A stretch of DNA of 14,319 nt from Flavobacteriaceae bacterium. Lineage in GTDB: Bacteria > Bacteroidota > Bacteroidia > Flavobacteriales > Flavobacteriaceae. Each line of letters opens with the position of its first letter. Position 1 is the stretch's first letter. The notes below the pieces were generated by a model, which saw only the letters and a program-made list of their open reading frames with translations, did no database searches and was not told the DNA's origin. A program made the translations under genes and the position numbers. The stretch lies in contig NZZF01000038.1 of the NCBI GenBank assembly GCA_002702385.1, positions 12,128 through 26,446 on the forward strand, given 5' to 3'. Below are positions 1,111 to 14,319 of this stretch, piece by piece.

Positions 1111-2361
1111 ATGAAAAAATTTAAAATTTATATTTTTCTAATTGCGATGATGTTATTCGCATGTAATGAAAACACAAAAAAAATTGATAACCCAATAGAA
1201 AAATTTCAAAGTGACTTAATTGCTGAGGGCACTACTGGATCAAATGTGGCTAAAGTTTTTAAAAATGGTGAGGTAATTTATGACCAAGTTGTAAATTCTG
1301 GAGCAAGTGGGGATAAAGATATTGACTCAAATACTATTTTTCCTATTTGGTCAATGTCTAAAACTGTAACTACTGTAGGTATGATGATACTTTTAGATCG
1401 AGGTCTTTATAATTTAGACGATAATGTTTCTGATTATCTTCCAGAGTACTCTAATCTTAACTGTAAAGGTGATGATGGAATATATCCATGTGAGAAAAAA
1501 TTAAAAATCACTCATTTACTATCACACAGGTCTGGATTTACATATTATGCCAAAAATGGTTCTAATTGGATAGCATCACTTACCACGGATTTGTATCCTG
1601 CTGTAGCTGATCCTGTTAGGTTTAATAATCTCGATGATTTTTCTAAAGCGGTAGCTAAAATTCCGCTTGATTTTGAACCTGGAGAAATGTATACTTATGG
1701 TATTAATCAAGCAATTCTAGGAAGGTTAATTGAAGTTATAAGTGGACAAAGTTTTTACTCATTTTTGAAAGAAAACATTTTTGATAAACTTGCAATGAAT
1801 GATACAAAATTTCATTTAACAGATGAAGACAGAGAAAGGTTTCAGCCTTTAAGAGTTAATATTAAACCAAACACAGACTTTAATCCATCTGATTTTTATC
1901 TTGATGGTTATACTACTGCCATGGATGGTTATCCATATAGCGAAGACAGTCAAGCTCATTTTGGAGGTGAAGGATTAGTTTCTACTATGTCAGATTTTTC
2001 TAAGTTTTGTGAAATGCTAGTAAATGATGGCACTTATAATGGAGAAAAAATTGTTTCAAGTGATGGAATAAAAATTATGACTGGTAAATATTCAAATGCC
2101 TACCCTGATCCAAGTGAGCCAAATGCTTTTCCATTTTTAGAAGGATACTATTATGGTTTTACTTTTAGTGTTTTGGAGAACACGGAAGCCTATGGTTCTG
2201 GAGCTCCAAATGGAATTTATGGATGGTCTGGATATCATAATACTTGGTATTGGATCGACCCTGTAAATAAGCTATATGCTTTATTCATGTCAAACTCTAT
2301 AAATCCTGATTTTAGTATTTTAAAAAATTTTCAAACAGCAACTTATAAATTCATAAAATGA
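1111..2361 (+). CDS. Beta-lactamase-fold serine hydrolase lipoprotein (class C / family VIII esterase type)
   Basis: A 416-residue protein with lipoprotein signal MKKFKIYIFLIAMMLFAC (lipid Cys18). The beta-lactamase-related fold (PF00144) is clear: catalytic S-x-x-K is S81-M-S-K84 (IWSMSKTVTTVG), followed by ITHLLSHRSGF (134-143), the second motif around Y196 (PGEMYTYGINQAILGRLIE, with Y-G-I instead of penicillin-binding Y-x-N) and the third motif region GWSGYHNTWYWIDP (371-384). A W-x-G third motif is characteristic of family VIII esterases and related hydrolases rather than true beta-lactamases (KTG). It is probably an envelope esterase, amidase or D-amino peptidase; the substrate is unknown. 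It overlaps the downstream gene by ATGA (2358-2361), so the two are translationally coupled and likely work together. Confidence 0.9.
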   Translation: MKKFKIYIFLIAMMLFACNENTKKIDNPIEKFQSDLIAEGTTGSNVAKVFKNGEVIYDQVVNSGASGDKDIDSNTIFPIWSMSKTVTTVGMMILLDRGLYNLDDNVSDYLPEYSNLNCKGDDGIYPCEKKLKITHLLSHRSGFTYYAKNGSNWIASLTTDLYPAVADPVRFNNLDDFSKAVAKIPLDFEPGEMYTYGINQAILGRLIEVISGQSFYSFLKENIFDKLAMNDTKFHLTDEDRERFQPLRVNIKPNTDFNPSDFYLDGYTTAMDGYPYSEDSQAHFGGEGLVSTMSDFSKFCEMLVNDGTYNGEKIVSSDGIKIMTGKYSNAYPDPSEPNAFPFLEGYYYGFTFSVLENTEAYGSGAPNGIYGWSGYHNTWYWIDPVNKLYALFMSNSINPDFSILKNFQTATYKFIK

Positions 2362-3812
2362 AAACAAAAATTATATATATCGCAGTTACAACAATTCTTT
2401 TATTTGGATGTGTTGACACAAAACAAAAACTTGGTTATGAAGCTGAGTACGAAAATGAAGTTGATATCTATGTTGGAGATGTGAAATCTACAGACGTAAT
2501 TAGAAAATGGTTTGATTCCTACAACGCCAGGGATTTAGAAACAGTTTCTAGTATTGAACATGATGATGTAGTATTATATGCTCCCAATGGAATGATTATT
2601 AATGGAAGTGATGAACACACCAAACTTGCAGAGCAATTTCTATCGGCTTATCCAAATGCCAAATGGGAAATACTTTGGTCAATTTCATCTGACATTGCAT
2701 TTAACACAAAACCCTCTGAAAACTGGGTCACTACATGCGTAACTGTTAGTTATGGCGAAGGGGATGAGGCTACAACTTTGCAAAGAATTATTGATGCTCA
2801 AATTGTGGAAGGTAAGATCAAGTTGGTTTATGGATATGAAAGAACCGTCTCTAAAGAAGAAGCTGAACAAAATAAAATTCAAATTTATGATAGCTCAATC
2901 ACTGAAATAATAGATGTTAATGCTGAAATTGAAGAACTTGCAGATTCAATTATGATTCCTGAGGGTCCTGTGTGGGACGATTCATCAAAGTCACTTCTTT
3001 TTGTTGATGTGATGAACAATAAACTATTCAAATGGAATGAAGAAAATGGAGCTTCAGAATATATTTCACCAAGTGGTAATACTGGATATGCGCCAAACTT
3101 AGGACAAGGCCTTTTAGGAGCTAATGGCTTAGCAATTGACAGTGAAGGAAATATTATAGTTTGCCAACATGGTGATAGGAGATTAGCTAAAGTTTCAAAT
3201 TCTAGCTCTAATGAGCCAACTTTTGAAACTGTTGTTGATAATTTTGAAGGAGACGCTTTTAACAGTCCTAATGATTTAGCAATTTCTAACGATGGCTCAA
3301 TCTATTTTAGTGATCCTGCTTTTGGATTTTTTGATTTAAATTCCTATCAGTTTGTAGATTCTGATTTGAAAGGCCTGGATTTTAATGGAATATATAAATA
3401 CAGCCCAGAAACAGAAAAAGCTGAATTAATTACTAAAGATATTGACTTACCTAACGGATTAGCATTATCCCCCGATGAAAAAACATTATATGTTAATAAG
3501 ATGGGAATGCTGGATTCAAACCCACAAATAATAAAAATAAATCTGGAAACAAATGAGTCTGAAACATTTTTTGAAGGGAAAGAATTGGCCGCTAAGTTTG
3601 AAGGAAATTTTGATGGAATGAAAGTTCACTCCAGCGGTAACATATTCACAACTGGACCGGGTGGTATTTTAGTTATTTCACCTGATGGAAAATTAAAAGC
3701 TAAGCTAAACTTTGGACATTCCACTAACTGTGCGTTTGATACAAATGAAGAATATTTATATGTTACAGGCTTTATTAATAATCAAAAAGTATATAGACTT
3801 AAATTGAAATAA
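2358..3812 (+). CDS. NTF2/SnoaL-like domain fused to SMP-30/gluconolactonase propeller, lipoprotein
   Basis: A 484-residue protein with lipoprotein signal ending ILLFGC (Cys18). Residues about 44-165 form an NTF2/SnoaL-like cone fold (VIRKWFDSYNARDLETV, DVVLYAPNGMIINGSDEH, ending IVEGKIKLVYGYER). Residues about 188-484 are an SMP-30/gluconolactonase/LRE six-bladed propeller (PF08450). Visible are EGPVWDD (E202), GANGLAIDSEGNIIVCQHG, FNSPNDLAISNDGSIYFSDP (N305), DLPNGLALSPDEKTLYV (N366), and NFDGMKVHSSGN (D419). The expected metal ligands E202, N366 and D419 are all present, so a divalent-metal lactonase or esterase activity is plausible. Its start overlaps the stop of the serine hydrolase (ATGA), implying a shared role in ester or lactone hydrolysis at the cell envelope. 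The domain order NTF2-propeller is unusual in my experience. The exact substrate cannot be read. Confidence 0.88.
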   Translation: MKTKIIYIAVTTILLFGCVDTKQKLGYEAEYENEVDIYVGDVKSTDVIRKWFDSYNARDLETVSSIEHDDVVLYAPNGMIINGSDEHTKLAEQFLSAYPNAKWEILWSISSDIAFNTKPSENWVTTCVTVSYGEGDEATTLQRIIDAQIVEGKIKLVYGYERTVSKEEAEQNKIQIYDSSITEIIDVNAEIEELADSIMIPEGPVWDDSSKSLLFVDVMNNKLFKWNEENGASEYISPSGNTGYAPNLGQGLLGANGLAIDSEGNIIVCQHGDRRLAKVSNSSSNEPTFETVVDNFEGDAFNSPNDLAISNDGSIYFSDPAFGFFDLNSYQFVDSDLKGLDFNGIYKYSPETEKAELITKDIDLPNGLALSPDEKTLYVNKMGMLDSNPQIIKINLETNESETFFEGKELAAKFEGNFDGMKVHSSGNIFTTGPGGILVISPDGKLKAKLNFGHSTNCAFDTNEEYLYVTGFINNQKVYRLKLK

Positions 3813-3908
3813 TTCTTTCTCAAATTTTTAAAAGATTAGATAATTAACCTATAATTAACAGTATTTAATTATTATTTTAATAGTATTGCTACCTAAAAAT
3901 TAATCAAT

Positions 3909-4430
3909 ATGAACAAAATTAAATTTATTCTATTATCAATTTTGATTGTAGGATGTGCTGGAACAGAAACTAAAAATTCCGAACCAAATATGGAATATGG
4001 AGGTTGGTCAGGAGTTTCAAGTGATTCTAGTAAAGAATCAATGATGACAAGAGAATTGATGAACGCATACATTGCTAATCAATTTGATGATGCTGCTTAC
4101 ATGATGGCAGAAGATGGAGCATTTTATTTCAACTCTGCTCAAGTATCAAAAGAAGAATGGGTTGCTGCTGGAGCTTTACACCACTCTTTATTTGATGATA
4201 TTTCCAACAGTAAAATTCAACCTGCTATTGTTACCACCTCGACTTACGATAATGGTGCCGTATGGTCTCAAGCATGGTTCTGGTGGACAGCAACGGGTAA
4301 AACAACAGGTACAGAAATTCAAATTCCTGTTCATCATGCTTTTAAATTTGAAAACGAAAAAATTGTTGAAGTATATCACTTCTTTGATCCTACTTTATTG
4401 GATGCTGAAGTTGCTGCATCAACTGAATAA
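3909..4430 (+). CDS. NTF2/SnoaL-like lipoprotein
   Basis: A 173-residue protein. MNKIKFILLSILIVGC is a lipoprotein signal (Cys16), followed by a polar linker rich in Ser, Glu and Gly. From about residue 48 (MMTRELMNAYIANQFDDAAYMMAEDGAFYF) to 165 it has the helix-helix-strand pattern of NTF2-like proteins, with a late HHAFKFENEKIVEVYHFFDP that fits the closing sheet, where HHAFKF resembles the 'hvfr...dGKI.e.' motif of SnoaL-type domains. Tryptophans are dense around residues 118-127 (VWSQAWFWWTATGK). It lies 96 bp after the NTF2-propeller fusion and 28 bp before the lipocalin-like gene, so it probably forms an operon with the latter. No catalytic residues can be assigned; it may be a binding or partner protein for the fused NTF2 domain upstream. 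Confidence 0.8.
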   Translation: MNKIKFILLSILIVGCAGTETKNSEPNMEYGGWSGVSSDSSKESMMTRELMNAYIANQFDDAAYMMAEDGAFYFNSAQVSKEEWVAAGALHHSLFDDISNSKIQPAIVTTSTYDNGAVWSQAWFWWTATGKTTGTEIQIPVHHAFKFENEKIVEVYHFFDPTLLDAEVAASTE

Positions 4431-6404: not shown

Positions 6405-7715
6405 ATGAAGAAGTTCATCATACTTTTAGTTTTCACTCAGTTATCATTTTCTCAAAATATTTTGGATTTAAAAAGCAGAGCCGATGTGATTAAAGATTTA
6501 CAAAAAGACAGATTAGATAATCTTTTACCAGATTTGATGGAAGAGACTGGAATTGATATGTGGGTTTTAATTACAAGAGAGTATAATGAAGATCCAATAA
6601 TTAAAACTCTTTTACCACCTACTTGGCTTAATGCAAGAAGAAGAACTATTTTAGCTTTTTATCATAATAACAAAGGCGAAATAGAAAAAGCTGCTATAAC
6701 TCGTTATAATTTTGGAGAAAATATTCCTTCGATTTGGGATAAAGACAAACAACCCGATCAATTAAAAGCGCTTTATGATTATATCAAAAGTAAAAAGCCA
6801 AATAAAATTGGATTAAACTACTCTGAACATTTCGCATTAGTTGATGGTATTTCAAAAACAGATTTTGATCTTTTCTACAATAATGCCCCAATAACAATAA
6901 AGAATAAAGTTGTTTCAGCTGAGGAACTTGGAATCAGATGGATTGAAACTAGAACACAAAAAGAAAAAGTTATTTATGATCAATTAGTTGAAATTACTCA
7001 TAACATAATTAATGAAGCTTTTTCAACTAAGGTAATAACACCTGGAGTTACTACAACTGACGATGTAGTATGGTGGATGCGTGAGAAAGTACTATCCTTA
7101 AATCTTAAAACATGGTTTCATCCTACTATAGATGTGCAAAGAAATTCTCAAAGTGATTTGTACGCTTTTGATGGTAAATCTAAATTCGACATAATTCAAC
7201 CTGGAGATTTAGTTCATTGTGATTTTGGAATTAATTATTTAACACTTAATACTGACTGTCAACAAATTGCATATGTTTTAAAACCAAATGAAAATAAAGC
7301 ACCTGAATATTTGTCAAATGCTTTAAAAGACGCAAACAAATTACAAGATATTTTTACTGATAATTTTGGTTATAAAAAAACAGGAAATCAGATTCTAAAA
7401 GAATCCTTAGAACAAGCAAAATCTGAAGGTTTAAAACCTCAGATATATACTCATCCGTTGGGTACTTATGGCCATTCTGCTGGTACAACTTTAGGTATGT
7501 GGGATTCTCAAGATGGTGTTCCATTCAAAGGAGATTTTAAAATGAATTTTGATACTGTTTATGCAATTGAGTTAAACAATAGAACTTACATAAATGAATG
7601 GAATAAAGAAGTTCGTATAATGTTAGAAGAAGCTGGAATGTTTGAAAAAGATGGTTTTAGATATGTAAACGGAAGACAAACAGAAATTATTTTAATTGGT
7701 AAAAATTTACATTGA
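6405..7715 (+). CDS. Exported M24-family metallopeptidase (Xaa-Pro aminopeptidase type)
   Basis: A 436-residue protein with Sec signal MKKFIILLVFTQLSFSQ (cleavage near 17). Residues about 25-170 form the creatinase-type N-terminal domain (GIDMWVLITREYNEDP, RRRTILAFYHN); residues about 185-436 form the pita-bread catalytic domain. Metal ligands can be placed at D273 (GDLVHCDFGINY), D284 (LNTDCQQIAYV), H357 (HPLGTYGHSAG), E389 (YAIELN) and E408 (RIMLEEAGMF), so the dinuclear site appears intact. The HPLGxYGHxxG block is a variant of the usual GHGIG and marks a subgroup of secreted Bacteroidota M24 proteins. It probably acts on peptides in the periplasm. Its stop overlaps the TTG start of the metallophosphoesterase. 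Confidence 0.9.
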   Translation: MKKFIILLVFTQLSFSQNILDLKSRADVIKDLQKDRLDNLLPDLMEETGIDMWVLITREYNEDPIIKTLLPPTWLNARRRTILAFYHNNKGEIEKAAITRYNFGENIPSIWDKDKQPDQLKALYDYIKSKKPNKIGLNYSEHFALVDGISKTDFDLFYNNAPITIKNKVVSAEELGIRWIETRTQKEKVIYDQLVEITHNIINEAFSTKVITPGVTTTDDVVWWMREKVLSLNLKTWFHPTIDVQRNSQSDLYAFDGKSKFDIIQPGDLVHCDFGINYLTLNTDCQQIAYVLKPNENKAPEYLSNALKDANKLQDIFTDNFGYKKTGNQILKESLEQAKSEGLKPQIYTHPLGTYGHSAGTTLGMWDSQDGVPFKGDFKMNFDTVYAIELNNRTYINEWNKEVRIMLEEAGMFEKDGFRYVNGRQTEIILIGKNLH

Positions 7716-8680
7716 AAAGAAGGAGTTTTTTAAAAAGCAGTTTTCTATTAAGTAATTCAGTATTAATACCTGAAAACTTTTTATTCAATAATAAACCAAA
7801 CCTAAAAGTTGGAATTATTGCAGATGTCCATCAAGACATAATTTTTGATGGAACCAAAAGAATTAAAAAATTTTTGAAAGATGCAAATAAGTTTAATGTA
7901 GATTTTGTAATTCAGCTTGGAGATTTCGCACTTCCAAGAAAGGTCAACCAAAAATTTATTAATAATTGGAATAATTATAAAGGATCAAAGTATCATGTAT
8001 TGGGTAATCATGATATGGTTGATTTTGGTTTTAAAAAACATGAAACTATGAAGTGGTGGGGAATGAATAAGAGATATTATTCTTTTGATAAAGGTGGACT
8101 TCACTTTATTGTACTAGATGGGAATGATAAAAATCCAGGTGATTGGAACGAGTACTATTATAGATATATTGGTGCTGAACAAAAGAACTGGCTTGAAAAT
8201 GATTTAAGAAATACTAAACTACCAGTAATAATTTTCAGTCATCAAAGTTTAGATGCTAACTATGGTGTCAAAAACAGAATTGAAATTAGAAAAATAATCG
8301 AGGATATTAAATTTGAAAATGGAGTCCAAAAAGTTATAGCATGTATTAGCGGTCATCATCATGATGATTACAATCAATCAATCAACGGAATAAATTACGT
8401 ACATATAAATAGTGCATCATATAAATGGGTTGGTGATAAATATAAGTTTTCAAGATTCTCTAAAAAAATTGAAAACAAATTCCCTTCAATAATTAAAACT
8501 TGTCCATATAAAGACTCTTTATATACATTTATGACCTGTGATTTTAGTAAAGGTGAAATTAGATTTGAAGAAAAAATATCGGAGTATATAAAACCATCAC
8601 CAACTGATTTAGGCATTCCTAATTCTGAACAAATGAATCCCTTAATATCTGAAATGAAGTTTAAATACTCTAAGGATTAA
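7712..8680 (+). CDS. Tat-type calcineurin-like metallophosphoesterase
   Basis: A 322-residue protein starting at TTG (7712), which overlaps the TGA of the M24 gene (TTGA). The start is supported because it yields a twin-arginine signal, KRRSFLKSSFLL, immediately. Phosphoesterase motifs (PF00149): D38-x-H40 (IIADVHQD), GD at 70-71 (IQLGDFALP), GNHD at 98-101 (YHVLGNHDMVDFG), H177 (VIIFSHQSL) and G-H-H-H at 214-217 (CISGHHHDD). All dinuclear metal ligands of the family are present. The hydrophobic part of the Tat signal is short, but folded-metalloenzyme export fits the family. The substrate is unknown; phosphodiesters or phosphomonoesters in the periplasm are likely. It closes the plus-strand group and is convergent with the small-gene cluster, with no clear terminator between them. 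Confidence 0.9.
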   Translation: MKRRSFLKSSFLLSNSVLIPENFLFNNKPNLKVGIIADVHQDIIFDGTKRIKKFLKDANKFNVDFVIQLGDFALPRKVNQKFINNWNNYKGSKYHVLGNHDMVDFGFKKHETMKWWGMNKRYYSFDKGGLHFIVLDGNDKNPGDWNEYYYRYIGAEQKNWLENDLRNTKLPVIIFSHQSLDANYGVKNRIEIRKIIEDIKFENGVQKVIACISGHHHDDYNQSINGINYVHINSASYKWVGDKYKFSRFSKKIENKFPSIIKTCPYKDSLYTFMTCDFSKGEIRFEEKISEYIKPSPTDLGIPNSEQMNPLISEMKFKYSKD

Positions 8681-9477: not shown

Positions 9478-10023
9478 TTATTCAACCTCAACTATCATAT
9501 CAATCTCAACCGCAATATTTGAAGGTAAAGAATTCATACCAACAGCTGCTCTTGTGTGCTTTCCTTTATCACCAAAAACTTCAACTAAAAGATCAGAACA
9601 TCCATTAACAACTTTTGGATGATCCGTGAATTCGGATGAAGCATTTACCATCCCAGTAACTCTTACTATTCTTTTTACTTTACTCAAATCACCAATAGAA
9701 GCTTTTAAAGTTGAGATTAAGTTTATTGCAGTTAATCTTGCAGCATTATAGCCATCTTCAATTGTAAGATTTTGTCCAACCTTCCCTTTAATATATTCAC
9801 CATTGCTTTGAAGAGGACCTTTGCCTGAAATAAACAAAAGATTGCCAACTTGAACAGTATTTACATAATTAGCCACGGGACTTGAAGGTGTAGAAAGTTC
9901 AATCCCAAGCTCTTGTAGTTTTGTTTCTGGACTTGTTGTATTTAAACTTTCCTTTTCAGCTTCAACACAACTTGTAATTAATAATAACGAAACAAATAAT
10001 GATAGAAATAATTTTATTTTCAT
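9478..10023 (-). CDS. RidA/YjgF-family lipoprotein (PF14588-like)
   Basis: A 181-residue protein with lipoprotein signal ending LLLITSC (Cys19). Residues about 35-180 form a RidA/YjgF fold of the chorismate-mutase-like 'YjgF_endoribonc' subgroup: NTVQVGNLLFISGKGP (55-70), the helix DGYNAARLTAINLISTLKA, VKRIVRVTGMVNAS and HTRAAVGMNSLPSNIAVEID (156-175). The arginine equivalent to the catalytic Arg of RidA imine deaminases (R105 in E. coli) is R158, and E173 matches the conserved Glu. RidA proteins hydrolyse reactive 2-aminoacrylate-type enamines/imines to 2-oxo acids. A lipidated, periplasm-facing RidA is unusual. It lies 5 bp downstream of the PLP enzyme gene, consistent with handling that enzyme's product. 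Confidence 0.88.
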   Translation of the reverse strand: MKIKLFLSLFVSLLLITSCVEAEKESLNTTSPETKLQELGIELSTPSSPVANYVNTVQVGNLLFISGKGPLQSNGEYIKGKVGQNLTIEDGYNAARLTAINLISTLKASIGDLSKVKRIVRVTGMVNASSEFTDHPKVVNGCSDLLVEVFGDKGKHTRAAVGMNSLPSNIAVEIDMIVEVE

Positions 10024-10028
10024 ATGAA

Positions 10029-11243
10029 TTAGATTTTATGTGATTTTAGAATTTTTTTAATTTTTTTAGCAACAATTTTTTCTTGCCCTGGAACCATCAT
10101 CCATGTTGTAATTCCAATTTCATTTTTGTTACCAACAGTTTCGATTGAAGGCGAACCTTCTCTCAAAATTTTTCTAACATTATCCGGACTAATATTAACT
10201 TTTGATTCATCCCAACGGATTTTTAAACTAGGAACATGATTAGCGTGAGGGGGAACATGAATAGTTGTTTCAACTCCACTTATAGATTTTGCAGATTCAC
10301 TGATTAAATCAATTTGATCCTCCCACATTTTCCATTCAGCTTGGTGATCCTTACTTAAATAGAGTTCTAATGCAGCAAGCATTCCTAAGACTTCTTCTTT
10401 ATTGACTTTCATCCCTCTACCAATTGTTTCACCCCTTGGAGGTGTATGTAATCTAGCTGCTTCAATATATTCTTTTTTGCCAAGTAATAATCCAGCACTT
10501 TGTGGTCCACGAAGACCTTTACCACCAGAAAAAGCTACCATGTCAAATCCTATTCTAGTAAATTTAAATAGGTTATCAACTGGAGGAACATCAGCGGCAC
10601 AATCTATAAAAGTTGGGATGTTATGTTTTTTTCCAAGACTTACAAATTCTTCCCATTTAATGTCCCCTCTGTCTGTATTAGCATTTAAAAACCATAACAT
10701 TGCAGTTTTTTTATTAATTGCATTTTCAAGTTCTTCAGCAGTTTTTACTTTGACTAGTTTAGCACCTACATTAGTCAATGCTTGTGCATAACCGATCGTA
10801 TGAGATTCTTGTAAAATAACTTCATTTCTAAGACCAGTAGTATCAGGCAGTTGTTTAATTTTTTTTGGATCTTTTCCGCTCATTACCCCAGCCATAGCAA
10901 TACTCATTGCCCCAAAGCAACCAGATGAAACAGTCGCATATTCACATTCAAGAAGTTCAGCAATTCTTTCACCAACTTTATCTTGCAGTTCATCAAGGTT
11001 GACATATTCTAATGATCCATAATTAATAGCATCGATAACTTCTTTAGGCATAAGAGAACCCGTCATGGAAGTATAGGTGCCTGCAGCATTAATAAATGTT
11101 CTAATTCCTAATTCCTTGAAATAATCTCTATTTAGCTTAACTAAATTTCCATTTTGATAAGTCAATAATTCATTGCTTGACAAAACACCTCCAATGAAAG
11201 GAATGCTGATTAATGATTTTAATGCTTTACGTCTTGTTCCCAT
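10029..11243 (-). CDS. SelA/DgaE-related PLP-dependent lyase with Tat-type signal
   Basis: A 404-residue fold-type I PLP enzyme. The N-terminus MGTRRKALKSLISIPFIGGV looks like a Tat signal (twin Arg at 4-5, then a hydrophobic stretch), as expected for a cofactor-loaded enzyme exported folded. The catalytic part starts about residue 45 (GIRTFINAAGTYTSMTGSLMP), with VSSGCFGAMSIAMAG as phosphate-binding loop (105-119), PTFIDCAADVPP with D214 contacting the pyridine N, and FSGGKGLRGPQSAG with K242 as the Schiff-base lysine. This GGKGLRGPQ block groups it with SelA-related lyases such as D-glucosaminate-6-phosphate ammonia-lyase (DgaE) and the 'SelA_rel' family, not with true selenocysteine synthase. 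Likely reaction: elimination of ammonia or water from an amino acid or amino sugar acid. Genes for RidA proteins flank it on both sides (9 bp and 5 bp gaps). Confidence 0.87.
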   Translation of the reverse strand: MGTRRKALKSLISIPFIGGVLSSNELLTYQNGNLVKLNRDYFKELGIRTFINAAGTYTSMTGSLMPKEVIDAINYGSLEYVNLDELQDKVGERIAELLECEYATVSSGCFGAMSIAMAGVMSGKDPKKIKQLPDTTGLRNEVILQESHTIGYAQALTNVGAKLVKVKTAEELENAINKKTAMLWFLNANTDRGDIKWEEFVSLGKKHNIPTFIDCAADVPPVDNLFKFTRIGFDMVAFSGGKGLRGPQSAGLLLGKKEYIEAARLHTPPRGETIGRGMKVNKEEVLGMLAALELYLSKDHQAEWKMWEDQIDLISESAKSISGVETTIHVPPHANHVPSLKIRWDESKVNISPDNVRKILREGSPSIETVGNKNEIGITTWMMVPGQEKIVAKKIKKILKSHKI

Positions 11244-11252
11244 AATTATAAA

Positions 11253-11708
11253 TTAATCTAGTGATGCAATACAGTCTATTTCAACTAGAGAGTTACCTGG
11301 AACTCCACCGTAGGTTGCTACGGTTGTTCTTACAGGAGGGTTTTTACCAAACCTTCCTCTATAAACTTGATTCATTGCTTTATAGTCAGCTAAATCAGCT
11401 AAGTAGACATTTACTTTTAAAACCTTTTCCATGGAAGATCCATTTTTTATAAGTGCTTTTTCAATTTCTTTAAGAACATGATCGGTATGATCTTTAATAT
11501 CTCCTTCAAAATGAGCTCCTTTTCCTGCAATATAAAGTGTATTTCCATGTTTAACTGCACTTGAAAATAAAGGATAATCTTGATCAGTAATTAAATCACT
11601 AGCTATTTTTTTTGTTTTACTTTCTGATGCCGACAAGCTAGAAATTCCAAAAATTCCAGCTAATCCGACTGTAAATTTCTTTAGTATTGATCTTCTATTA
11701 TTTTTCAT
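11253..11708 (-). CDS. RidA-family protein with Tat-type signal
   Basis: A 151-residue protein. MKNNRRSILKKFTVGLAGIF followed by GISSLSASES is a clear Tat signal (N-R-R-S-I-L-K-K, hydrophobic core, S-x-S-A end). From about residue 40 it is a canonical RidA: PLFSSAVKHGNTLYIAGKG, DHTDHVLKEIEKALIKNG, VLKVNVYLADLADYKAMNQ and PVRTTVATYGGVPGNSLVEI. R127 matches the catalytic Arg and E143 the conserved Glu, so imine deaminase activity is expected. It belongs to a different RidA subgroup from the lipoprotein at 9478. The gene is 9 bp ahead of the PLP enzyme gene and 19 bp after the RraA-like gene, in one operon. RidA is normally cytosolic, so the Tat signal is noteworthy. Confidence 0.9.
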   Translation of the reverse strand: MKNNRRSILKKFTVGLAGIFGISSLSASESKTKKIASDLITDQDYPLFSSAVKHGNTLYIAGKGAHFEGDIKDHTDHVLKEIEKALIKNGSSMEKVLKVNVYLADLADYKAMNQVYRGRFGKNPPVRTTVATYGGVPGNSLVEIDCIASLD

Positions 11709-11727
11709 ATTAATTTATTTTAAAATT

Positions 11728-12654
11728 TTACCAAGTTCTTTTTTTAAGTAATTCTTTTATTTGTTCTTTAGGAACAGGAAGTTCATCAACATTTTTTTCA
11801 AGCCATTTTGAAAAATCTTTTTCAATTTCATCTGACCACTTATTGTCAATTTGACCAGGCGTGTAAACGCCTTCTTTTAATCTAGTGATTCCAAACAAGT
11901 CACGTAATCTTACTACTTCTGATGTAGTAACAACTTTTTCAGCTAAATGAGCAGGAATAAAAATTACACCAGTTTTTTTTGCAAGTACTACATCACCAGG
12001 CATAACACTAGCTGCACCTATCCTGACAGGATAATTAATGCTTAACAACATTACTTCTTTTAAAAAAGAAGGATCCCATCCCTTTACAAAAGCATTAAAA
12101 CCATCGATTTTTGACAATCCTTCCATGTCTCTACTAGATGCATTAAAAACAACACCTGTTTTAGATTTTGCATATATTGCATTTCCAAGATTATCTCCAA
12201 TTAAGGTTCCATCAACAATTTTCCCAAATCCATCAGCAACATAAACATCATATTCAACTAACCTATCAATAGGCCATGAATTAGTATTTCCAATTTCTCC
12301 ACTTTCTATTCCAGTTTTTTTGATCTGATTTGAAACATCTGGTCTATTTGGTAAATATTGCACTGTCAATGCTCTTCCGACGAAAGGAGAATCTTCATGT
12401 AGAGGTTGCCAATTTCCTTCAAATTGATTTAGATAGCCTTCATTTTTTAAAACAACCCAAGCTTCTTCAATAGATACTTGTTTCATTCTTTCAAGAATAG
12501 ACTTTGAAACTTTTGGCCTTCCATCATTGAACCTCTCTCCCTCCCAATTGGAAGTAAGTTCTATCATTTGTTTTTTTGATAAATTTTGTGAATACGTAAA
12601 CGATATACTAGCTAATAAAAAAAGACCTATAATTAAGTTTAATATTTTTTTCAT
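11728..12654 (-). CDS. Exported RraA-like aldolase/decarboxylase-family protein
   Basis: A 308-residue protein with Sec signal MKKILNLIIGLFLLASISFT and a YSQ cleavage site (about residue 23). Residues about 45-270 match the RraA/4-hydroxy-4-methyl-2-oxoglutarate (HMG) aldolase family: FVGRALTVQYLP (91-102), VYVADGFGKIVDGTLIGDNLGN with G153-D154, TGVVFNASSRDMEGL with R175-D176, PVRIGAASVMPGDVVLAKKTGVIFIP (209-234; D221). R175 and D176 correspond to the pyruvate-binding Arg and metal-binding Asp of HMG/oxaloacetate aldolases, which argues for an enzyme that splits or decarboxylates a 2-oxo acid, rather than the RNase E inhibitor role of E. coli RraA. A periplasmic location is unusual. It lies 2 bp after the transporter gene. 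Confidence 0.87.
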   Translation of the reverse strand: MKKILNLIIGLFLLASISFTYSQNLSKKQMIELTSNWEGERFNDGRPKVSKSILERMKQVSIEEAWVVLKNEGYLNQFEGNWQPLHEDSPFVGRALTVQYLPNRPDVSNQIKKTGIESGEIGNTNSWPIDRLVEYDVYVADGFGKIVDGTLIGDNLGNAIYAKSKTGVVFNASSRDMEGLSKIDGFNAFVKGWDPSFLKEVMLLSINYPVRIGAASVMPGDVVLAKKTGVIFIPAHLAEKVVTTSEVVRLRDLFGITRLKEGVYTPGQIDNKWSDEIEKDFSKWLEKNVDELPVPKEQIKELLKKRTW

Positions 12655-12656
12655 TG

Positions 12657-13733
12657 TTATTTTTTTATTGATTTATCTCTCCACCATGTTGCCAATGAAG
12701 ATCCTGAAATGTTCATCCACGGACCAAATATCGCAGGCGCTAATCCTACTGTAGAAATTTTACCCATCTCTAGCGCAATACCAGTAGCTAATCCGCCGTT
12801 TTGCATTCCTACTTCAAACGCAATTGTTCTACAGTCTTGCTCTTTCATTTTAAACAATCTACATCCCCAATATCCAAGTAGATATCCTAATAAGTTATGA
12901 ATTATTGCTGCAAGAATCAAAAATCCTCCAATTGTAAGTAATGAGTCTCTTCCGGCTGCTGTTATAATCATAATAATTATTGCAATACCAGCCATTGAAA
13001 TAATAGGCATAGATTTATCTAGCCATTTTGCTTTTCCGTGAAAGAAATAATTAAATACAAGACCTAAAAAAACAGGTACAATTACAATTTTAAGTATTGA
13101 AATCATCATTCCAACAAAATCTATTGGAACGAATGATCCAGCTAAATATTTCATTAAAAATGGAGTCATGATTGGAGCAAGCAAGGTTGCAAAGGCAGTA
13201 AGAGTTACTGATAAGGCTATATTTGCTTTTGCTAAATAAGCCATAACATTTGATGCAAGACCACTAGGTGAAGAACCAATTAATATTACTCCTGCAGCAA
13301 TTTCAGCTGGAAAATTAAAAATTGATGCTAATGTAAAACCTAAAACAGGCATTATTGAAAACTGACATACCAGTCCTATAAATACACCCTTCGGCATTTT
13401 AATTACTCCGTAAAAGTCTTTAAAACTCATAGCAGTTCCCATTCCAAACATTATTATTTGTAATAAAGGAACAATTAGTTTTTTCATTTCAAAACCATTT
13501 AATTCCACAAAGTATTTTGGATAATACATTGAAATACTAACTGCTGCAAAAATTAATACTGTGAAGGAAAACCCTTTATATTTTTCAGTAGTGTTGAGGC
13601 TGATTGAAAGTAAAATGAGAAATAATATTAGCATTGGACCAGTACTAATAAAATCACTTGTAAAAAATGAGATAATTGTTAGAATTAATGAAACTCCTGT
13701 GATGATTGATAATATTTTTGATAAATTTTTCAT
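12657..13733 (-). CDS. BASS-family (bile acid:Na+ symporter-like) transporter
   Basis: A 358-residue polytopic membrane protein counted from the ATG at 13733 (MKNLSKILSI), 2 bp after the stop of the amidohydrolase; an ATG at 13748 (MGRIT) would add five residues and overlap that gene. About 10 hydrophobic helices. BASS/SBF (PF01758) signatures with likely Na+ ligands: QFSIMPVLGF (Q124), SSPSGLASNVMAYLAKAN (N162) followed by SVTLTAFATLLAP, and FEVGMQNGGLATGIAL (E307, Q311), then GLAPAIFGPWMNISGSSLA. All residues of the two-sodium site that I can place are present, so active Na+-coupled uptake is expected. Relatives move bile acids, pyruvate and other organic anions. Here it most likely imports an organic acid, or a product of the adjacent enzymes. 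Confidence 0.9.
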   Translation of the reverse strand: MKNLSKILSIITGVSLILTIISFFTSDFISTGPMLILFLILLSISLNTTEKYKGFSFTVLIFAAVSISMYYPKYFVELNGFEMKKLIVPLLQIIMFGMGTAMSFKDFYGVIKMPKGVFIGLVCQFSIMPVLGFTLASIFNFPAEIAAGVILIGSSPSGLASNVMAYLAKANIALSVTLTAFATLLAPIMTPFLMKYLAGSFVPIDFVGMMISILKIVIVPVFLGLVFNYFFHGKAKWLDKSMPIISMAGIAIIIMIITAAGRDSLLTIGGFLILAAIIHNLLGYLLGYWGCRLFKMKEQDCRTIAFEVGMQNGGLATGIALEMGKISTVGLAPAIFGPWMNISGSSLATWWRDKSIKK

Positions 13734-13735
13734 AG

Positions 13736-14319
13736 TTATTCGTCCCATTTTAAACTAGCCAAACCATTTAGATCATAAACAATTTTACCATCTTTTATTG
13801 TTAATTCACATTCCAGTTTTTTAGTTCCATTCATTTTTTTGTTTTTAGTATCAATAAAGCCAAAATCACCTTCTCTCAAATTTAAAATTGTAATATCAGC
13901 TACAGAACCAACACTTAAATTTCCAAGATTTTCTTTCTTTATAGATTTAGCTGCATCCCATGTTACCGAAGTTATAACTTCATTTAAATTAAGCCCCATG
14001 TTCAAAAATTTAGACATAACGTTTAATAAATCTTTCATACCTCCATTCATACTTCCTGTATGTAAATCAGTGCTTATAGTATTGGGTTTTAAACCTTGAT
14101 TTATTGCTGGAATTGCTTGTGAAAAAGCAAAACTTCCACCACCATGACCAACATCAAAAATTATCCCTTTATTTTGAGCTTCTTTAACAAAATCATGTAG
14201 TTTATTATTGCCGTCAACTATTGACATTCTGCCTCTAACGTTTGCATAAGTATGAGTAAATATATCTCCGGGTCTTAGTTTATGTAATAGTAAACTATCA
14301 AGTGGCATTAATGGATTGC
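13736..14319 (-). CDS. Amidohydrolase/deacetylase-family metallohydrolase (N-terminus off right edge)
   Basis: The frame is open to the window edge, so the internal ATG at 14308 is not the true start; about 193 C-terminal residues are seen. Counting from that ATG, the sequence has LRPGDIFTHTYANVRG (11-26, His18), IIFDVGHGGGSFAFSQAIPA (49-68, metal His55), TISTDLHTGSMN with D81 (the likely catalytic or metal Asp), and the C-terminal beta-sandwich with LSVGSVADITILN and ELTIKDGKIVYDLNG. This matches the amidohydrolase group related to dihydroorotase/D-aminoacylase (the EF_0837/AHA_3915-like family), which I recall is often encoded beside SelA-related PLP enzymes, as here. It likely hydrolyses an amide, N-acyl or cyclic amide bond. 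It is the most upstream gene visible in the minus-strand series. Whether it carries a signal peptide cannot be seen. Confidence 0.88.
   Translation of the reverse strand, partial: NPLMPLDSLLLHKLRPGDIFTHTYANVRGRMSIVDGNNKLHDFVKEAQNKGIIFDVGHGGGSFAFSQAIPAINQGLKPNTISTDLHTGSMNGGMKDLLNVMSKFLNMGLNLNEVITSVTWDAAKSIKKENLGNLSVGSVADITILNLREGDFGFIDTKNKKMNGTKKLECELTIKDGKIVYDLNGLASLKWDE

Follow-up and report, generated by a model that had tools for sequence, protein, structure and literature searches.

The stretch of DNA analysed here (the window; 14,319 nt, G000:C35:12128-26446) is from a Flavobacteriaceae bacterium, and its minus strand holds, at 9478-14317, a six-gene operon with a putative role in amino-sugar catabolism outside the cytoplasm. 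The genes are transcribed in the order amidohydrolase (AMH), BASS symporter, RraA-like protein, RidA-family protein RidT, pyridoxal phosphate (PLP) enzyme and RidA-family lipoprotein RidL (Table 1), with stop-to-next-start gaps of 2, 2, 19, 9 and 5 nt when the BASS gene is taken to start at ATG 13733 rather than at 13748, where its longest open reading frame (ORF) begins. Gene coordinates and profile families bear out a preliminary description of the window, which had listed six minus-strand genes with gaps of 2-19 bp. The right edge of the window is the contig end (G000:C35:26446), and because the window stops there, only a C-terminal piece of AMH is present. The source genome bin is 1.19 Mb in size and 69.5% complete.

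The gene set, its operon arrangement, the export signals, the catalytic residues and their conservation are direct observations on the sequence. In particular, the N-termini of the PLP enzyme (MGTRRKALKSLISIPFIGG) and RidT (MKNNRRSILKKFTVGLAGIFG) are signals of the twin-arginine translocation (Tat) type, the N-terminus of RraA (MKKILNLIIGLFLLASISFTYSQ) is a Sec-type signal, and the N-terminus of RidL ends in a lipobox (...LLLITSC). These four signals had been named in the preliminary description, and all of them are legible in the sequence; the exported set given there was incomplete, since full-length relatives of AMH (L017, L139) start with a Sec-type signal and are predicted to be exported too. 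Both Tat-type proteins have a twin-arginine n-region followed by a hydrophobic stretch, and TatC is encoded in the same genome, from which export is predicted. A separate 125-residue RidA with no room for an N-terminal extension is encoded on another contig of this genome, and the exported RidA copies are therefore additional to it.

Table 1. Genes and export signals of the operon in the window
Feature	Position	Strand	Basis or proposed role
Amidohydrolase (AMH), PRK09237/EF_0837 type, C-terminal 193 residues	13736..14317	-	Amidohydro_1/PRK09237 profile matches; putative N-acyl-aminosugar-acid deacylase
BASS/PanS-like inner-membrane symporter	12657..13733	-	SBF/bass profile; candidate for 2-oxo acid product uptake
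RraA-like protein, Sec signal, D-x20-R-D (D154, R175, D176)	11728..12654	-	Candidate periplasmic 2-keto-3-deoxy acid aldolase
Tat-type RidA (RidT), Arg127 and Glu143 kept	11253..11708	-	Ribonuc_L-PSP profile
Tat-type PLP enzyme, SelA/DgaE fold, PLP lysine K242	10029..11243	-	SelA/TIGR01437; putative 2-amino-2-deoxy-aldonate ammonia-lyase
RidA-family lipoprotein (RidL, PF14588), lipobox Cys19, Arg158 and Glu173 kept	9478..10023	-	YjgF_endoribonc profile
Tat signal of PLP enzyme, about residues 1-28	11160..11243	-	Sequence; RR at residues 4-5
Tat signal of RidT, about residues 1-30	11619..11708	-	Sequence
Lipoprotein signal of RidL, up to Cys19	9967..10023	-	Sequence
Sec signal of RraA, about residues 1-22	12589..12654	-	Sequence

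Conservation of the export signals and of the operon

Relatives of the PLP enzyme were searched for in 149 genomes of the same family (9 strong matches including the own genome, and 4 more at E about 1e-4), in 23 genomes of the genus (strong match in 4; none of the genomes is 90% complete) and in 395 genomes of the phylum (match at 1e-20 in 8, the own genome and G032 among them). The 80 loci taken from named genomes are the best 80 of 462 confirmed relatives and are biased toward near relatives. After removal of 4 duplicate loci, 84 loci were retained; in 60 of them, the PLP gene is flanked by 6.5 kb or more upstream and 1 kb or more downstream. Operon content was counted in these 60 flanked loci, the other 24 of the 84 being excluded for short flanks; the signal-classifier, residue-alignment and DgaE-column counts include the 4 duplicates.

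Export signals were scored with a home-made classifier. It does not distinguish Sec signals from membrane helices and may wrongly label RraA proteins as lipoproteins; the excess of Tat signals is its one informative outcome. A Tat signal was assigned to 89 of 90 5′-complete PLP genes and to 70 of the 74 RidT genes. The 630 other ORFs of these loci were scored as Tat in 48 cases, lipoprotein in 154, Sec/membrane in 210 and none in 218, and the Tat signals of the PLP enzyme and RidT are thus not a chance occurrence. The misses comprise one PLP gene and two RidT genes with a too-early start codon, and two RidT genes with KR variants that stem from a single locus represented in duplicate. RidL was scored as a lipoprotein in 53/60 cases, and some export or membrane signal was found in 51/51 RraA proteins and 76/78 AMH proteins. 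Likewise, in the alignments, the twin arginine at residues 4-5 of the PLP enzyme is invariant (92/92 sequences), residues 5-6 of RidT are RR in 73 of 75 rows and KR in 2, and the lipobox cysteine of RidL is present in 59 of 60 rows. The 12 PLP copies from other families also have RR near the start, which in L128 (573 residues) follows an upstream extension. The signals persist in relatives of as little as about 45-50% identity, which speaks for the periplasmic location that the preliminary description had made dependent on N-terminal extensions in homologues.

In the 60 flanked loci, the PLP gene is accompanied by genes for AMH (59), a lipoprotein combining glucose dehydrogenase and cytochrome c (GSDH-cytochrome c; 54), a CBM9 lipoprotein (41), RraA (37), BASS (34), RidT (49) and RidL (46), with at least one of the two Rid genes in all 60. 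TRAP transporter genes are found in 10 loci, BASS or TRAP in 41, and a gluconolactonase gene, mostly upstream and divergent, is nearby in 14. The common gene order is CBM9 - GSDH/cytochrome c - AMH - BASS - RraA - RidT - PLP - RidL (- DctP/Q/M), and median gaps between most neighbours are at most 38 nt (19 nt for the 55 GSDH-AMH pairs), the wider ones being AMH-PLP with 70 and CBM9-GSDH with 165. Two relatives from the genus (L138, L139) have GSDH, gluconolactonase and all six genes, including a full AMH with a Sec signal, and probably display what the contig end hides upstream of the window genes, namely gluconolactonase, GSDH-cytochrome c and the full AMH. In both loci, a second amidohydrolase (33-35% identical) adjoins the gluconolactonase (L138:1855-3273, L139:16912-18339).

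The linkage extends beyond the family. Most operon parts recur, shuffled and duplicated, in three further families of the phylum (L126-L130, L132, L133), which argues that the linkage is not mere synteny by descent. Conserved co-occurrence, which the preliminary description had put forward as a check, is thus found as conserved content and order in Flavobacteriaceae and as largely kept content in shuffled order in the three other families. Furthermore, among the 149 family genomes, a full-length GSDH-cytochrome c (E <= 1e-190) occurs in 8/8 other PLP-positive genomes versus 1/140 without the PLP gene, the 4 genomes with PLP matches of only E 1e-4 being counted as PLP-negative. In G032 this gene lies far from the PLP locus, elsewhere in the genome, and weaker GSDH relatives occur in 16 further family genomes. 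A PLP gene of 60% identity with a RidT gene beside it is found on a contig binned as Verrucomicrobia (L093), reflecting gene transfer or misbinning.

Active-site residues of the encoded enzymes

The nearest solved structures for the PLP enzyme are those of DgaE (7lc0/7lce), and a SelA function was discarded on the ground of this match. Its scores lie below the curated cut-offs of NF047797 (157.1 bits; 600 needed) and TIGR01437 selA_rel (196.8 bits; 385.3 needed). The PLP lysine K242, in an SGxK motif, is kept in 92/92 rows and aligns to DgaE K213 by chain count (Lys-217 in the paper). According to the DgaE study, the substrate phosphate was placed near Arg-301/332/346 by manual docking, His-163 protonates C-3, and the H163A mutant is still active but releases an enamine; it is argued there that enamines of this kind may be toxic and are degraded by RidA-type enzymes (PMC9529869). 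These three arginines and His-163 are invariant in 14 DgaE sequences hand-picked from 120 listed. In a profile-profile alignment (probability 100), Arg-301/332/346 correspond to S339/V370/G386 of the window enzyme and His-162/163 to N189/T190, and neither an arginine at the three phosphate-cluster columns nor a histidine at the His-163 column is found in any of the 92 rows. The missing phosphate-binding arginines predict that the substrate carries no phosphate, in keeping with a compartment devoid of ATP, and the missing proton donor predicts release of an enamine, which in turn would explain the RidT or RidL gene in 60/60 flanked loci. Another residue could take over proton transfer. L127 has an additional exported PLP copy (2976-4187), in which NASHH occupies the His-162/163 position and which lies beside a short-chain dehydrogenase/reductase (SDR) gene without an obvious signal.

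RidA proteins are known to protect PLP enzymes of the cytosol against enamines, and PLP lyases and RidA are generally treated as cytosolic. RidT passes the PF01042 gathering score (77.9 bits; 27.3 needed) and falls below TIGR00004, the Rid family detoxifying hydrolase (65.6 versus 106.25 bits); RidL passes the PF14588 (YjgF_endoribonc) gathering score (92.2 bits; 35 needed). The residues that we take to be catalytic in RidA proteins, such as the arginine, are kept throughout, with R127 and E143 of RidT in 75/75 rows and R158 and E173 of RidL in 60/60 rows.

The residues followed in AMH, RraA, SMP-30 and GSDH are likewise those that we presume to be catalytic. The metal ligands H85, H87, K188, H243 and D305 of AMH (L018 numbering) are present in 78/78 rows and H279 in 76/78. 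The window fragment alone scores 225.6 bits, below the NF006689 cut-off of 371, and the full-length AMH relative in L139 scores 433.5 bits, above this cut-off (PRK09237). The nearest solved structures are 8je0, 2ogj and 2ics, the latter two of which we take to be Atu3266 and EF0837, with PpOngB (9kb1) as a weak partial match. In RraA, the D-x20-R-D motif, presumably the motif of RraA-type class II aldolases, is kept in 50 of 51 PLP-operon rows, and the nearest solved structures are the RraA-like protein 5x15 and the aldolase 3noj; the score is below the cut-off of the LigK-type CHA aldolase TIGR02798 (46.6 versus 304.5 bits). A role as RNase E regulator was set aside, as RraA is exported and scores far below the cut-offs of NF006875 (28.6/136 bits) and TIGR01935 (22.7/123.8 bits). 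BASS passes the SBF Pfam cut-off (141.5 versus 24.3 bits), lies below the equivalog cut-offs of TIGR00841 (245 bits; 326.3 needed) and PanS (243.1 bits; 400 needed), and is nearest to bacterial bile-acid-symporter-family transporters (8oyf/3zuy).

In the relatives, the His/Arg residues and CxxCH haem motif of GSDH are kept in 64-65 of 65 rows, and the E/N/N/D residues of the gluconolactonase, the nearest solved structures of which are SMP-30/gluconolactonase-type propellers, in 18/18 rows. The window itself encodes, at 2358-3812 (+), a lipoprotein-like protein in which a SnoaL-like domain is fused to an SMP-30/gluconolactonase domain; sharing just 31% identity with the operon gluconolactonase across 175 residues, it is not claimed as the missing lactonase. 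Among the other plus-strand genes, 1111-2361 encodes a beta-lactamase-family protein, a distant relative of which (24%) follows RidL in L029-L032 and L037 (L037:11802-13058), and 7712-8680, read from a TTG start, encodes a calcineurin-like phosphoesterase with a Tat-like start (MKRRSFLKSSFLL) that adjoins an M24 peptidase-family protein at 6405-7715.

A candidate periplasmic route and its alternatives

We propose, at a probability of roughly 0.64 judged from sequence, that the window genes form the 3′ portion of an operon with which Bacteroidota would degrade an N-acylated amino sugar, of the N-acetylglucosamine (GlcNAc)/N-acetylgalactosamine (GalNAc) type, oxidatively in the periplasm and without phosphorylation. 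The GSDH-cytochrome c, gluconolactonase and CBM9 lipoprotein genes of relatives suggest that the route starts earlier than the window genes, and they point away from an amino acid and toward an amino sugar. The preliminary description had proposed a periplasmic catabolic pathway; the signals and the gene linkage underlying that idea are conserved, and the route seems to begin at an earlier point, with an amino sugar, than could be seen from the window. In addition, a PIG-L-type deacetylase gene (c37) lies before AMH in 4 loci, and GlcNAc 2-epimerase relatives are found in the neighbourhood stretches of 5 loci. An amino sugar is the favoured substrate, to which GSDH, CBM9, gluconolactonase, the PIG-L-type deacetylase, the GlcNAc 2-epimerase relatives and the DgaE-like lyase all point.

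In the proposed route, a GSDH-fold, probably pyrroloquinoline quinone (PQQ)-dependent cytochrome c lipoprotein, the gene for which would lie beyond the contig end, would oxidise C1, and the SMP-30/gluconolactonase, where present, would open the lactone. The exported AMH, judged by its family, would then take off the acyl group, and the Tat-exported PLP enzyme, judged by its residues and by the published DgaE mutant, would eliminate water from the 2-amino-2-deoxy-aldonate and should free the enamine. RidT and RidL would hydrolyse the enamine/imine to a 2-keto-3-deoxy acid and ammonia. In the last and least certain step, RraA may cleave this acid into pyruvate plus an aldehyde, and/or the 2-oxo acid may be imported into the cytoplasm by BASS (or TRAP). 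The roles of RraA as aldolase and of BASS as product importer, and the keeping of enamines out of the cytosol, are what we infer from these assignments.

Paralogues of RraA bear on the last step. The RraA search of the 149 family genomes gave 23 matches, namely 7 close orthologues in PLP operons, one in the PLP locus L023 and 15 elsewhere; at 1e-30, RraA relatives are more widespread (14/149 genomes), and RraA alone was rejected as a pathway marker. Of the 15 exported paralogues outside PLP loci, 14 adjoin a gene whose product resembles enolase-superfamily sugar-acid dehydratases, of the galactonate/gluconate/arabinonate type where scanned (L141, L142, L144, L151), and BASS lies within 2 kb of 7 of the 15. 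RR occurs in the first 60 residues of 13/13 adjoining dehydratases with a complete 5′ end; in L152 the scored RR precedes the Tat-like ARRNFLKKT. These loci (L141-L147, L149-L153 and L148:3692-6062, the L146 dehydratase being cut at its 5′ end) look like a parallel exported module for neutral sugar acids. L151 also holds a 2-keto-3-deoxygluconate (KDG)-kinase-like gene, a KHG/KDPG aldolase, a mannonate dehydratase and a mannonate oxidoreductase; L147 resembles L151 by eye, its aldolase being confirmed. Exported RraA and BASS thus tend to be found with those exported enzymes that are expected to yield a 2-keto-3-deoxy sugar acid. The motif aspartate is a serine in seven dehydratase-linked RraA proteins (L145, L146, L147:6398-7366, L150-L153), and these copies may not be aldolases; the RraA proteins of PLP operons keep the aspartate, which allows aldolase activity. 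A clean split, with Asp-type RraA occurring without and Ser-type RraA with KDG kinase, was abandoned because L147 holds both types.

A wider and more tentative reading, which we consider possible rather than probable, is that Bacteroidota possess a general periplasmic, non-phosphorylative Entner-Doudoroff-like platform, in which interchangeable exported front ends, the PLP ammonia-lyase for amino sugar acids and Tat enolase-superfamily dehydratases for neutral sugar acids, would feed exported RraA and a BASS/TRAP importer, the amino-sugar lyase without the protonating histidine freeing enamine for two exported RidA proteins.

Several observations weigh against the proposed amino-sugar route. 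In the flanked loci, GSDH is absent nearby in 6/60, a lactonase in 46/60, RraA in 23/60 and BASS in 26/60, and 11/60 loci (Arenibacter-type) are without RraA, BASS or RidT, at odds with a rigid scheme. The window has neither GSDH nor gluconolactonase, and no full-length GSDH was found in the own bin at its 69.5% completeness. L140 (G050:C1:183000-202999) has CBM9-GSDH/cytochrome c-TRAP-esterase and no AMH, Rid or PLP genes, which can be read as a remnant or a separate oxidation-uptake module; the PLP gene of L131 has no operon partner in the 10.7 kb to the contig end. L132 contains, in 20 kb, two PLP and two AMH genes, GSDH, gluconolactonase, RraA and BASS, yet no Rid gene, and is thus the counter-example to the explanation of the Rid genes by enamine release. 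A histidine is present at the DgaE His-162 column in 11/92 rows, and, among the 12 distant copies, L127 (2976-4187) is the sole case with a histidine at the His-163 column, and L129 has an arginine at the Arg-346 column. In L147, Ser-type and Asp-type RraA lie in one stretch, the Asp-type copy beside a KDPG-type aldolase, and because both types stand beside the same aldolase, the motif residue does not separate cleavage from import. KDPG-aldolase-type genes are present in 14/14 near-complete PLP-positive genomes and in 16/18 of all, so that the product may be imported intact.

Three other explanations were weighed. In the first, exported enzymes would salvage N-acyl amino acids, such as those of D-amino acids derived from peptidoglycan or peptides: AMH would deacylate the substrate, the PLP enzyme would deaminate serine/threonine-like amino acids, RidA would hydrolyse 2-aminoacrylate, and BASS would import pyruvate or 2-oxobutanoate. 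The weak matches of AMH do include D-aminoacylases, BASS by family name resembles PanS, a ketopantoate/pantoate transporter, and classic RidA substrates are of the 2-aminoacrylate type, as also stated in PMC9529869. However, the neighbourhood is shared by GSDH-cytochrome c, CBM9 and, in 14/60 loci, gluconolactonase, the nearest solved PLP enzyme is a sugar-acid lyase, RraA and BASS relatives go with Tat sugar-acid dehydratases, and a PIG-L-type deacetylase gene precedes AMH in 4 loci; we regard amino-acid salvage as unlikely.

It is similarly improbable that the amino-sugar-acid chemistry holds but the aldonic acid is made elsewhere, with GSDH and the lactonase serving another sugar. The loci with no GSDH nearby (6/60), the lactonase being nearby in only 14/60, and L140, with GSDH and without AMH or PLP, would fit such an arrangement; the GSDH-AMH median gap of 19 nt and the genome co-occurrence of GSDH (8/8 versus 1/140) oppose it. 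An entry fed by lytic polysaccharide monooxygenases (LPMO) was dropped, as LPMO_10 (PF03067) is found in 0/18 PLP-positive genomes, which also speaks against this alternative and makes a dehydrogenase the probable source of the aldonic acid. Finally, the exported proteins might serve envelope quality control rather than catabolism, with RidA being chaperone-like, as some RidA proteins are, and the PLP enzyme a detoxifier. Here, the catalytic residues are kept, transporters and CBM9 are in the operon, and the patchy distribution (4/23 genus genomes, all incomplete; 8/395 phylum genomes) suits an accessory trait, leaving this explanation very little probability.

Comparison with known systems

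If the proposed route is correct, it would place amino-sugar breakdown chemistry by normally intracellular families outside the inner membrane, would constitute an ATP-free amino-sugar route in carbon and nitrogen cycling, with ammonia released outside the cytoplasm, and would provide functions for many proteins now labelled RraA family, RidA family or selenium-transferase-like. With a lyase that lacks the residue preventing enamine release, and with lyase and RidA both predicted to be exported, this conserved operon would also lend itself to testing cleanly if the proton donor can be substituted by RidA and the compartment. An open-access literature search, judged by titles and the beginnings of abstracts and with subscription papers mostly outside its scope, returned no recognisable description of an exported RidA/PLP/RraA operon.

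Individual features have precedents. In Pseudomonas and acetic acid bacteria, direct glucose oxidation is periplasmic, with a quinoprotein and lactonase outside the cytoplasm and subsequent acid uptake; unlike in the route proposed here, release of the amine and cleavage of C-C bonds are not known to be periplasmic there. PvdN of Pseudomonas is likewise a Tat-exported PLP enzyme; it is of another subfamily and serves siderophore maturation, not catabolism. The amidohydrolases EF0837 and Atu3266, which presumably have DgaE-like neighbours, share the AMH family, as judged by family and structure matches, and the SelA-like partner; they are presumably cytosolic, whereas AMH here is predicted to be exported and goes with RidA. 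Sugar-acid enzymes are described as cytoplasmic in PMC11036162.

The closest parallels are the Dga and Ong pathways. The operon shares with Dga (PMC9529869) the lyase fold and PLP lysine, the predicted beta-elimination of water from a 2-amino-2-deoxy-aldonate, and an aldolase-type partner. It differs in being exported, in lacking the phosphate-binding arginine triad and His-163 (92 rows), in having a RidA pair, with RraA in place of DgaF, in scoring under the NCBIfam cut-offs, and in that no phosphotransferase system (PTS) was seen in the operon. With the Ong pathway of Pseudoalteromonas prydzensis (OngB deacetylase, OngC PLP deaminase, OngD RidA, KdgK; PMC9537276), which leads from GlcNAc1A to KDG, it shares a deacetylase, a PLP deaminase and RidA. 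RidA is needed in vivo in that pathway, as strains deleted for ongD no longer grew on GlcNAc1A. In contrast to the operon products, OngB and OngC are predicted to be cytoplasmic, and OngC is of fold type III, whereas the operon described here has a SelA-family PLP enzyme with a Tat signal, adds RraA, BASS and GSDH, and is found without LPMO_10 in the 18 PLP-positive genomes. None of the operon's proteins falls outside known families, and the proposed reactions resemble those of Dga and Ong. What is new, as far as the search showed, is the location of the enzymes, the presence of two exported RidA proteins, the absence of the proton donor and the association with RraA.

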